A stretch of DNA of 37,275 nucleotides from Candidatus Falkowiibacteriota bacterium (GTDB lineage: Bacteria > Patescibacteriota > Patescibacteriia > UBA11705 > JABHMO01), in assembly GCA_018693855.1 (NCBI GenBank), contig JABHMO010000017.1, forward strand, positions 1 through 37,275. The letters run 5' to 3'. The notes under the pieces were generated by a model, which did not search any database, was not told the DNA's origin, and saw only the letters and a program-made list of their open reading frames with translations. This document shows, piece by piece, positions 30,183-33,503 of this stretch. The stretch's first letter is position 1; every line of letters begins with the position of its first letter. The position numbers were made by a program, and so were the translations under genes.

Positions 30183-31538
30183 CTAAAAGTATAAATCTCT
30201 CTGACCTTGTTTAATCTGATCTAATTTATGTTTGGTCTGTTCTTTTATGTCAGGATTATTAATTATTAATACATTTTTATCAATGATGGTTTGTCCGTCT
30301 TTTTTTAGTTGATCTGAAGTATAATCTTCTAAATATTCTTGAAATGTTAGTAGGGCATTGGGGAAACAAAATTCATGTATTTCTCCTCGTTTGGCAATAC
30401 TCATAAACTTTTCACCTGTTCTTTCAATTCTGTAGCAAGCTGTACAAAAACTTGGTAGATACCCATCTTTTATCATGGACGTTATGACTTCGTGAAGAGG
30501 TCTGTGATCTGATAGTGAGAACTGTTCTACTTTTTCTTTTTTTCCATATCCTCCAGGAGCTGTCCGTGAAGCAGCACTTGCTTGAGAGATGCCAAGGTCA
30601 AAAGCTTGTTTTCTTATCTCTGGAGTTTCTCTTGTTGAAAGAATCATTCCTGTATATGGAACAGCTAAACGCATGATTGCGATTAGCTTTAAGAACTCTT
30701 GATCGTTAACAAGATTAGCTGATTGAAAGTCAACTGTTGGTGCACTATTTAATCTAGGAAAAGAGATTGTGTGAGGTCCGATACCGTATTTGTCGTTTAA
30801 GTAATTTGCGTGTTCAAGTAAACAGAGTGCCTCAAACTTATAATGATATAATCCAAATAGAACACCAATCCCCAAATCATCTAAGCCAGCTTGAAAAGCT
30901 TTATCATGTGCGTAAAGTTGTCTTTCGTAATCAGCTTTTGGACCCTGATGTAGGCTCTTGTAAGTTTCTTTGTGGTAAGTTTCTTGAAAAAGTTGGTATG
31001 TCCCGATTCCGATTGCTTTTAACTTTTTATAATTATCAACAGTGGTCGCTGCAATGTTAACATTTACTCTTCTTATTTCACCATTGTTCAATTTTGCCTT
31101 GTAAATTTCTTGAATAGCATCTACTACGTAATCAATTGGGGTATTTATTGCATCTTCTCCAACTTCGACCAATATTCTTTTATGTCCCATTTTGATTATC
31201 TCTTGAGTTTGTTCAGTCACTTGCTTTAGTGAAAGTTTTTGTCTAGGTGTTTTATTATCAGAATGAAACCCGCAGTATTTACAGTTATTAACACAGAAGC
31301 TGCTAAGATAAAGTGGTGCAAAAAGCACAATTCTGTCACCGTAAATTTCTTGTTTGATTTGATTAGCGATAGCTTTTATCTCGTCATCAGCATCAGAGTT
31401 CAGTAACACAGCTGTTTGTTCCAGGTTAAGACCTTTCTTCTGTTTTGCGATATTTAAAATTTCCTTAACTTGCTCAGTTGAAGGGGTTTTTGTTTGCTGT
31501 AGTATTTGATTGATTTTAGTTTCGTCTATAAAACTCAT
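30183..31538 (-). CDS. hydG: [FeFe]-hydrogenase maturase HydG
   Basis: HydG is a radical-SAM tyrosine lyase that makes CO and cyanide on iron for the H-cluster. Both diagnostic clusters are present in this 451-aa protein: CX3CX2C (Cys82, 86, 89; CVNNCKYC) for the SAM-binding [4Fe-4S], and the C-terminal CX2CX22C (Cys365, 368, 391) that binds the auxiliary cluster. The C-terminal cluster separates HydG from the thiamine enzyme ThiH. Flanking blocks CTACYRIERTGEKFM and FPNALLTFQEYLEDY fit HydG closely. It starts 14 bp after the hypC-hydE fusion, in one operon. No hydF or hydrogenase is in the window. Confidence 0.93.
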   Translation of the reverse strand: MSFIDETKINQILQQTKTPSTEQVKEILNIAKQKKGLNLEQTAVLLNSDADDEIKAIANQIKQEIYGDRIVLFAPLYLSSFCVNNCKYCGFHSDNKTPRQKLSLKQVTEQTQEIIKMGHKRILVEVGEDAINTPIDYVVDAIQEIYKAKLNNGEIRRVNVNIAATTVDNYKKLKAIGIGTYQLFQETYHKETYKSLHQGPKADYERQLYAHDKAFQAGLDDLGIGVLFGLYHYKFEALCLLEHANYLNDKYGIGPHTISFPRLNSAPTVDFQSANLVNDQEFLKLIAIMRLAVPYTGMILSTRETPEIRKQAFDLGISQASAASRTAPGGYGKKEKVEQFSLSDHRPLHEVITSMIKDGYLPSFCTACYRIERTGEKFMSIAKRGEIHEFCFPNALLTFQEYLEDYTSDQLKKDGQTIIDKNVLIINNPDIKEQTKHKLDQIKQGQRDLYF

Positions 31539-31552
31539 AATTAAGTTTAATG

Positions 31553-32815
31553 TTAGAGGTTCTCTTTCAATTTCTTCTCCAGCATCTCATAACTATCAGG
31601 TTCATTGAAAAGTCCGTATTTCTCCCAGATCTTTTCTTCCTTGAAATATTTATCATCGTAAAGTCTGTATGAATCACGATATTTGTCTGGTGTTAAATTA
31701 AACATTAAAGAATTTGCTCCAGATTGTAATGCTTTTTTTCTTCCATTTGTCGGATCAAGTGTTTCATGCGCTGTTACAACTGGGATTTTTGCATATTTAT
31801 TTAGCAATCTAAGTGTGGCAATTACATTAAGCATTAAATCAGTGTTACCTGCTTCTGATTTCTCTAGTGGTGTATTCTGAGAGGGGACAAAGGGACCGAA
31901 GGACGCCATAGGAAACTTATTTTTCGTAAAGAAAAGTATATCGTCAGCAATGTCGTCAGAGATCTGTCCGGGAAGTCCGATAATTGATCCAGTTGCAATG
32001 AAATAACCAAGCTCTTGAAACCATTTTAAATGTTCAAACCTTTTATCGTAACTTTGATTTGGATGAAGATAGTTGTAGTGATCACGATTTGTACTTTCAA
32101 ATCGGAATAAGACACCATTTGCTCCAGCTTCTTTTAATTCTTTGTATGTTTGATAATCTCTTTCTCCGATACTGATAAAGATGAAGACTTGCTCTTTCTC
32201 TTTTATCTTTTTAATTATTTTTACCAAGTCTTCTTTTGAATAGAATGTATCTTCACCAGATTGCAGCACTAGTAATTTGTATCCTTTTTCTTTAATTGAT
32301 TCAAGTGCTGTTTTAATTATTTCATCTGGTGTCATTCTGAATCTTTTTAACTCCGTATTATCACGTCGAAGTCCGCAGTAGAGACAGTTGTTGTTGCAGT
32401 GATTTGAAAATTCGATAATTCCGTGAATGCAAAAGAAATCTTTTAGATTTTCTTGACGTATAACATTCGCTTCGCTCCGCAGTATTTTAGATTCTTCGTC
32501 CCTGCAGTTCAGCAAGTATATAATTTCTTGTTTGTTAAGTGTTTCAGTTTGAACTTTTTTAATTATGTTTTGAAAGTCTGTTGAAGATTTAGATATATCA
32601 GTTATTTCTTGTGATTCAAGCAATTCAATAATTTGTTTTGCTTCATCTTTCTCAATTTTCCTTACAACATTACCAACCGTGTGAAGAATCCAGTCACCAA
32701 TCTCTATTTCCGGCAAAAGTGCTAGATTAATTTCCTTTTTTTCATTATTATAATTTTGAACAATTGCTAGATTGTTCTTTTTCTCAATTACTCTACCTGG
32801 AATAGTTAAACACAT
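31553..32815 (-). CDS. HypC-HydE fusion protein
   Basis: Residues 1-70 are a HypC/HupF domain: MCLTIPGRVIEK with the essential Cys2, then EIGDWILHTVG and EAKQIIELL. HypC carries the Fe(CN)2CO group in [NiFe]-hydrogenase assembly. The conserved HypC His appears shifted by one residue (LHTVG instead of LVHVG). From about residue 85 to 420 is a HydE-type radical SAM enzyme with CX3CX2C (Cys140, 144, 147; CNNNCLYC). It also has GEDTFY and SIGERDYQTY blocks and PSQNTPLE followed by TAHETLDPTNGRK near the end. HydE acts with HydG on the [FeFe] cofactor. I know no standard protein with this fusion. The frame is continuous across the join, and hydG follows in the same operon. Confidence 0.9.
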   Translation of the reverse strand: MCLTIPGRVIEKKNNLAIVQNYNNEKKEINLALLPEIEIGDWILHTVGNVVRKIEKDEAKQIIELLESQEITDISKSSTDFQNIIKKVQTETLNKQEIIYLLNCRDEESKILRSEANVIRQENLKDFFCIHGIIEFSNHCNNNCLYCGLRRDNTELKRFRMTPDEIIKTALESIKEKGYKLLVLQSGEDTFYSKEDLVKIIKKIKEKEQVFIFISIGERDYQTYKELKEAGANGVLFRFESTNRDHYNYLHPNQSYDKRFEHLKWFQELGYFIATGSIIGLPGQISDDIADDILFFTKNKFPMASFGPFVPSQNTPLEKSEAGNTDLMLNVIATLRLLNKYAKIPVVTAHETLDPTNGRKKALQSGANSLMFNLTPDKYRDSYRLYDDKYFKEEKIWEKYGLFNEPDSYEMLEKKLKENL

Positions 32816-32915: not shown

Positions 32916-32992
32916 TGGTGGACGCATGAGGAGTCGAACCTCAGACCTCATCAACGTCAATGATGCGCTCTAACCAACTGAGCTATGCGTCC
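32916..32992 (-). tRNA. tRNA-Val(GAC)
   Basis: The cloverleaf is complete: acceptor GGACGCA/TGCGTCC, D-arm GCTC/GAGC, anticodon stem CATCA/TGATG around loop TTGACGT (anticodon GAC), T-arm TGAGG-TTCGACT-CCTCA. The discriminator A and CCA are encoded (TGGT at 32916-32919 on the plus strand). The first 10 nt overlap the 3' end of the GIY-YIG gene. Confidence 0.95.
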
Positions 32993-33258
32993 TTAGTTCT
33001 AAATTTTGTTGGATGTCCGTATTTAATTAGGTTCTCTTTTTTTTCTTTTATCCATCCTTTAATCTGTATTTCTCTTTTCATTGCCTCTGATCGACTTTCA
33101 TATTCCTCAAAATAAACTATTTTTACCGGTCTTCTTTGTCTGGTATATTTTGCTCCTTCTCCTTTATTGTGTTTTTTCTCTCTTTTTAAGATATCAACAC
33201 AGTACCCTGTATACAGGGAATTATCGTTACAACGAGCTAAATATGTATAATATGACAT
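32983..33258 (-). CDS. GIY-YIG nuclease domain protein
   Basis: This 91-aa protein starts MSYYTYLARCNDNSLYTGYC, the YhbQ/UvrC-like GIY-YIG core (Tyr-Thr-Tyr ... Tyr-Thr-Gly), and keeps KREKKHNKG and the catalytic Glu in EAMKREIQIKGW. Small stand-alone members are structure-specific or repair-related nucleases. The ATG at 33258 is chosen because upstream in-frame sequence is made of the palindromic repeat. The stop codon TAG lies inside tRNA-Val (GGACGCATAG), so the gene and tRNA share 10 bp. It sits between two tRNAs, all in one direction. Confidence 0.88.
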   Translation of the reverse strand: MSYYTYLARCNDNSLYTGYCVDILKREKKHNKGEGAKYTRQRRPVKIVYFEEYESRSEAMKREIQIKGWIKEKKENLIKYGHPTKFRTKDA

Positions 33259-33300
33259 AATTGAATCACAGCACTTCGACTCTCTCCGTTCGCTCTCTTT

Positions 33301-33340
33301 CGAGTCTGAGCCTGAGGGCTCATCCCTCAGAGTCGAAGAC
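33301..33340. repeat. Dispersed palindromic repeat, copy B
   Basis: This element has CTGAGGG/CCCTCAG arms around CTCAT, flanked by CGAGTCTGAGC and AGTCGAAGAC. It matches copy A at 8610-8650 apart from a few bases and one indel. Confidence 0.75.
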
Positions 33341-33377
33341 AGCGCATTCGCCTCGCATATTGGAGGTGGAACACACT

Positions 33378-33426
33378 TTCGACTACGCTCAAGGTCTTCG
33401 ACCATGAGCGAGCAAAGCGAGTCGAA
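33378..33426. repeat. Inverted repeat abutting tRNA-Ile
   Basis: TTCGACT (33378-33384) and AGTCGAA (33420-33426) bracket a GCTC/GAGC-containing centre. The element touches the CCA end of tRNA-Ile and shares TTCGAC motifs with copy B nearby, suggesting stacked REP-like elements. Confidence 0.6.
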
Positions 33427-33503
33427 TGGTGGGCCTGATGGGACTTGAACCCATGACCCCCACGTTATAAGCGTGGTGCTCTTACCGACTGAGCTACAGG
33501 CCC
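33427..33503 (-). tRNA. tRNA-Ile(UAU)
   Basis: The cloverleaf has acceptor GGGCCTG/CAGGCCC, D-arm GCTC/GAGC, anticodon stem CCACG/CGTGG around loop CTTATAA (anticodon TAT, bases 33467-33469) and T-arm ATGGG-TTCAAGT-CCCAT. A and CCA are encoded. The anticodon reads AUA directly, unlike the usual bacterial CAU tRNA modified to lysidine. Confidence 0.92.

Follow-up and report, generated by a model that had tools for sequence, protein, structure and literature searches.

The DNA analyzed here, referred to as the window, is a stretch of 37,275 nt from contig JABHMO010000017.1 of a Candidatus Falkowiibacteriota genome (assembly GCA_018693855.1; 995 kb, 92.9% complete). It contains a gene encoding a HypC domain joined to a HydE radical SAM enzyme, followed 14 bp downstream, on the same strand, by a complete hydG. 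The features of the locus are shown in Table 1.

Table 1. Features of the hypC-hydE locus (positions are those of the window)
Feature	Position	Strand	Remarks
hydG	30183..31538	-	451 aa; TIGR03955, 545.7 bits (cut-off 312.15), model positions 10-470 of 470
HydG C-terminal auxiliary cluster motif C365-x2-C368-x22-C391	30366..30446	-	invariant in four HydGs of the class
hypC-hydE fusion gene	31553..32815	-	420 aa; one uninterrupted ORF with ATG start; both halves match Pfam, NCBIfam and PDB entries
HydE radical SAM domain, residues about 80-420	31553..32578	-	TIGR03956; best structural match T. maritima HydE
Radical SAM [4Fe-4S] motif C140-x3-C144-x2-C147	32375..32398	-	invariant in fused and canonical HydE
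C129-x-H131, signature of the fused HydE subfamily	32423..32431	-	Cys and His in 74/74 fusions
HypC domain, residues 1-68	32612..32815	-	HupF_HypC profile match at residues 1-66
Cys2 codon	32810..32812	-	iron-binding cysteine of HypC by homology; Cys2 in 74/74 fusions
tRNA-Val(gac)	32916..32992	-	just upstream of the fusion
ORF	32983..33405		likeness to GIY-YIG proteins, by eye only
tRNA-Ile(tat)	33427..33503	-

Residues 1-66 of the fusion protein match the Pfam model HupF_HypC (PF01455) from end to end, with 62.7 bits against a cut-off of 28.5 (E=3.6e-17), and the N-terminal part also exceeds the cut-off of the NCBIfam HypC model TIGR00074 (56.8 bits, cut-off 48). Residues 88-394 match the NCBIfam equivalog model for HydE, TIGR03956, with 275.7 bits (cut-off 254.6); the runner-up model for this half, PylB, reaches 154.5 bits against a cut-off of 348. 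Some other fused members score slightly under the TIGR03956 cut-off. Each half separately matches chains in the PDB (HydE: 7o1o/5few, E~1e-67; HypC: 2z1c, E=1.8e-9). Cys2, Pro6 and the CxxxCxxC radical SAM motif are all present. The AlphaFold single-chain model of the fusion is confident across the entire chain (pLDDT 92.3, pTM 0.91), and in structural comparison it comes closest to T. maritima HydE (37-38% identity), structures in complex with the HydG product being among these best matches. The initial annotation had described, within one uninterrupted frame, a HypC of about 70 N-terminal residues with Cys2 kept and a HydE radical SAM enzyme over the remainder, and had named domain profiles as the check. 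With both profiles above their cut-offs this description stands, and its coordinates and residue limits were correct to a few residues.

Distribution of the fusion and the fused HydE subfamily

The initial annotation had also called for a search for the same architecture in other genomes, and it was found repeatedly. The fusion occurs in three of 54 other genomes sampled around the window's class (48-55% identity, hydG following it in each). HypC and HydE lie in a single ORF in 76 of the best 80 loci from a GTDB scan that yielded 443 relatives; these 76 are 74 loci with a Met-Cys start (among 79 HydE ORFs), L065, which is cut by a contig end, and L070. Because the architecture recurs in this way, chance and assembly error are excluded; a binning artefact is likewise ruled out by the 76 of 80 loci. 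Met1, Cys2, Pro6 and Ala59 are identical in all 74 aligned fusions.

By record, the bacterial hosts are Patescibacteria lineages, Omnitrophota, Elusimicrobiota, Margulisbacteria, Planctomycetota, Myxococcota, Pseudomonadota, Spirochaetota and Nitrospirota, and the archaeal hosts are small-genome archaea; individual MAG labels may err, as for L051, which is labelled Methylomirabilis and shares its match position with G025 of the window's class. Locus L099 (G095) is probably misbinned: its contig was assigned to Falkowbacteria but matches a WOR-1 contig, L100, with 99.9% identity across 10.6 kb. The HypC-HydE fusion is confirmed as real and widespread, in many phyla and two domains of life.

A tree of the HydE part, with HypC removed, separates the fusions from canonical HydE (SH-aLRT 100). 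Compared with nine canonical sequences, the fused HydEs have lost the canonical Arg155, Tyr156, Gly226 and Pro292, and in nearly all of them Thr134 and Met199 are replaced; Glu351 and Phe239 are near-invariant. At the positions of C129 and H131, canonical HydE has His, Tyr or Trp52 and Arg54, the latter in 9/9. Judged by their sequences, the fused HydEs form a subfamily of their own. From their invariance one might guess that Cys129 and His131 serve as extra iron ligands. One unfused HydE, L095, from a genome with [NiFe]-hydrogenase only (G092), groups with the fusions. L095 keeps the CxH signature, with hydG adjacent and a [NiFe] cluster nearby, and no HypC was found in the locus; its HypC domain was possibly lost secondarily.

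Like T. maritima HydE (TIGR03956, PDB 7o1o), the fusion has the HydE fold, the radical SAM motif and about 40 conserved positions; those common to fused and canonical HydE include Gln107, Met224, Arg257, Thr269, Tyr303 and Tyr306. Unlike canonical HydE, it carries an N-terminal HypC domain, belongs to a separate clade and occurs in genomes mostly lacking HydA and HydF. With HypC (PF01455, TIGR00074) it shares the entire domain, the Met-Cys-x-x-x-Pro start, the invariant Cys2 and the linkage to [NiFe] genes. It differs from HypC in being joined to HydE and in having no HypD partner in any of the 52 genomes described below; in addition, His51 of E. coli HypC is not conserved, mostly being Gln in the fusions, and five to six residues that are inserted in E. 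coli HypC are absent.

Hydrogenase genes of the host genomes and operon context

Profile searches of the window's genome gave no [FeFe]-hydrogenase (PF02906), no HypD, and neither HypE nor HypF above cut-off; its best HydF match, with 90.6 bits, is below the cut-off of 325.55. The fusion is the sole HypC of this genome. Contig C33 of the same genome carries a [NiFe] cluster consisting of Fe-S, FAD/NAD, small and large subunits and a short HypA-like protein. The large subunit (PF00374, 120.2 bits) keeps the two CxxC pairs that bind Ni and Fe, as RICGIC and DPCISCATH. In the relative G019 the whole [NiFe] cluster, the fusion and hydG form one operon.

The searches were extended to 52 fusion genomes (the window's, the three class relatives and 48 GTDB genomes), and also to G092 and to ten relatives whose HypC is free. 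Among the 52, which were picked for the fusion rather than at random and are mostly draft MAGs of unreported completeness, profile searches detected a [NiFe] large subunit in 50 (none in G076 and G083), HypD in none, and neither HypE nor HypF above cut-off in any. The best HypE match has 122 bits against a cut-off of 251.6, and the weak HypF matches, including a partial match of 125 bits in G082, look like paralogous domains from the profile segments matched. As controls, 14 named genomes were searched with the models for [NiFe], HypD, HypE and HypF, and each model exceeded its cut-off in four of them; HypD and HypE turned up in E. coli, Synechococcus, Methanocaldococcus and Methanosarcina, whereas Thermotoga alone gave a HydA, HydE and HydG signal. 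Since HypD, HypE and HypF are missing from all 52 fusion genomes beside a [NiFe] large subunit in 50, missing contigs are no explanation.

Of 75 fused loci, 39 encode a [NiFe] large subunit, on the same strand as the fusion in 33 and directly adjacent in several. When the loci are restricted to those with at least 8 kb on either side of the fusion, the count is 16 of 24. A HycI-like protease lies near the fusion in 19 loci (one family member was confirmed as Pfam HycI), and HypA and HypB lie near it in several. In some Gammaproteobacteria the gene row reads hypA-hypB-FeS-FAD-small-large-protease-(transporter)-hypC-hydE. Large subunits with both ends present keep RICGxC and DPCxxCxxH, with few exceptions. 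In counts that include a few free-HypC relatives, the protease is absent nearby in 15 of 15 loci whose large subunit stops at the His of DPCxxCxxH, and present nearby in 16 of 21 loci whose large subunit has a tail, as expected of genuine [NiFe] maturation. Short HypA-like proteins of 83-87 aa were seen at L030 (8265-8513), L032 (14360-14620), L064, L065 and L066; their match to Pfam HypA is confined to its N-terminal two thirds, and they end short of its C-terminal part.

[FeFe]-hydrogenase (PF02906) was found in six of the 52 fusion genomes. HydF exceeds its cut-off in three and falls just below it in one more, and all four have [FeFe]-hydrogenase. Five genomes (G082, G094, G095, G099 and G102), all with [FeFe]-hydrogenase, encode two HydEs, one of the fused type and one canonical; [FeFe]-hydrogenase occurs in one of the 48 other HydE-bearing genomes (G088). 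The canonical HydE of G095 is flanked by hydG and hydF, and the fused copy is on the suspect contig mentioned above. The unfused HydEs of L112 and L122 adjoin HydA, HydF and HydG.

HydE and HydG are by definition maturases of [FeFe]-hydrogenase (PMC12752695), and the fused HydE with HydG could accordingly be taken to serve [FeFe] maturation, the HypC domain being an add-on that docks or carries the [2Fe] precursor. The six fusion genomes with [FeFe]-hydrogenase are compatible with this, as is L110 (G102), where a gene for a NuoG-like [FeFe]-hydrogenase subunit (HydA) is located 1.5 kb from the fusion. Yet in L110 hypA and hypB come after the fusion, a PF02906 protein is lacking in 46 of the 52 fusion genomes, HydF exceeds its cut-off in [FeFe] genomes only, five of the six [FeFe] genomes have a second, unfused HydE, and the fused clade stands apart from canonical HydE. 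An [FeFe] role is therefore considered very improbable. That the fusion serves an [FeFe]-hydrogenase overlooked in the draft genomes is disfavoured by the absence of HydA from the same 46 genomes. The initial annotation had interpreted the fusion as a link between two co-existing hydrogenase systems, and the genomes do not favour this: [FeFe]-hydrogenase is absent from the window's genome and from 46 of 52, and none of them has HypD, HypE or HypF above cut-off. On these grounds the fused HydE looks like a dedicated [NiFe] maturase.

Proposed route to the [NiFe] iron site

By current understanding, the Fe(CN)2(CO) centre of [NiFe]-hydrogenases depends on HypC, HypD, HypE and HypF, of which HypE and HypF make the cyanide and HypC and HypD form the scaffold (PMC6802093). 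In the [FeFe] pathway, HydG uses two tyrosines to build [Fe(Cys)(CN)(CO)2]; HydE then receives this complex and modifies it by adenosylation and reduction (PMC12752695). The co-occurrence pattern described above suggests an undescribed second way of building the Fe-CN-CO centre. The fusion is probably the iron-ligand maturase of the [NiFe]-hydrogenase, acting with HydG and replacing HypD, HypE, HypF and free HypC.

We infer every chemical step of this route, as follows. HydG would cleave tyrosine and yield an Fe-CO-CN-cysteine unit, which the HydE domain would take up, its modified active site freeing the iron carbonyl-cyanide from the cysteine. The product would be captured by Cys2 of HypC rather than dimerised, and Cys2 would then insert the iron unit into the large subunit of the [NiFe] enzyme, the task that HypC has in the Hyp pathway. 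The Fe(CN)2(CO) centre would arise from the Fe(CO)2(CN) unit of HydG, while nickel insertion by HypA/HypB and end-trimming by HycI would remain conventional. Compared with the HypCDEF pathway, the presumed product and presumed recipient, the [NiFe] large subunit, are alike, and HypA, HypB and HycI are kept; the difference lies in the radical SAM enzymes that stand in place of HypD, HypE and HypF. The initially proposed handover, in which HydG/HydE would pass an Fe-CO-CN unit to a carrier of the HypC type, is favoured by the genomic context; its framing as a bridge between two pathways is not.

Several observations count against this route. The known HydG product is Fe(CO)2(CN) and not Fe(CN)2(CO). 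His51 of E. coli HypC is unconserved, and [NiFe]-hydrogenase went undetected in G076 and G083. In some relatives that lack HypD, [NiFe]-hydrogenase and free HypC occur without HydE/HydG, so that the absence of HypD alone is no proof of a takeover by HydE and HydG. HydG was detected by profile search in 45 of the 52 fusion genomes and not in the other seven (G066, G068-G071, G088 and G093; loci L060, L063-L066, L088 and L096), which include Buchananbacteria and two Gammaproteobacteria whose [NiFe] operons look complete; for these seven, one has to suppose either a different source of the ligands or gaps in the MAGs.

The motif CxxCx22C, present in the HydG of the window, is given for the auxiliary cluster of HydG in PMC9431212. 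A HydG tree did not separate [NiFe]-linked from [FeFe]-linked HydG and so gives no support either way; it is consistent with HydG making one product in both routes. At L071 (4020-5390), from a Woesearchaeota MAG, hydG is split by one TGA between two ORFs.

A variant of the preferred explanation is that Fe(CO)2(CN) is passed unchanged to the large subunit, whose [NiFe] site would then carry two CO ligands and a single CN. In its favour, HydE accepts the [Fe(Cys)(CN)(CO)2] that HydG produces (PMC12752695), and no HypE or HypF is at hand to add a second cyanide. The large subunits, on the other hand, are ordinary in motif. To our knowledge, all characterised [NiFe] sites of the standard type are Fe(CN)2(CO). 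From each tyrosine HydG releases a CO and a CN, which makes a second cyanide available. Unchanged transfer is rather doubtful, and its probability is contained in that of the preferred explanation, not counted apart from it. A low but appreciable probability is likewise given to a second, radical SAM route with a new ligand set, in which the Fe(CO)2(CN) built by HydG would be trimmed by the fused HydE; if this is true, the iron of these [NiFe]-hydrogenases is unlike every one characterised so far.

In the open-access literature, to which the search was confined, no description was found of the fusion or of HydE/HydG serving a [NiFe]-hydrogenase; either may have been described elsewhere. In the part of Jaffe et al. 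2020 (PMC7304191) that was consulted, group 3b [NiFe] clusters of CPR bacteria appear as gene clusters of the same kind, with a neighbouring family, fam002, of which some members are hypC-like; that part makes no mention of HydE, HydG, a fusion or missing HypDEF.

If the preferred explanation is true, both hydrogenase pathways share chemistry once thought exclusive to one, in hosts such as Patescibacteria, Omnitrophota, Margulisbacteria, Elusimicrobia, some Gammaproteobacteria and small-genome archaea, and missing hypDEF no longer implies an inactive [NiFe] enzyme. Genomes scored as [FeFe]-capable from hydE and hydG may be misannotated. A two-gene route could also ease the heterologous production of [NiFe]-hydrogenases.

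Relatives with free HypC

The [NiFe] Fe(CN)2(CO) centre might also be made by some other route, with HypC-HydE/HydG giving one ligand or performing a repair or side task. Such a route could possibly involve an EamA transporter and a DUF6390 protein, which are encoded beside free HypC in several HypD-less [NiFe] relatives without HydE/HydG; the seven fusion genomes without HydG also point this way. In the loci read, nevertheless, HydE/HydG and EamA/DUF6390 alternate in the same operon slot, the EamA and DUF6390 models match no gene in the 80 fusion loci, and the physical fusion to an iron carrier points at the iron-ligand step itself. This reading is considered unlikely, and a role of the fusion as the iron-ligand maturase remains preferred.

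EamA and DUF6390 (PF19927) occupy the HydE/HydG slot at L036, L037, L040 and L042 (G045, G017, G042 and G050), and L034 and L035 show the arrangement in part. In these genomes a [NiFe]-hydrogenase and free HypC were found, and no HypD, HydE or HydG. The EamA/DUF6390 arrangement is possibly a third route to the [NiFe] iron site.
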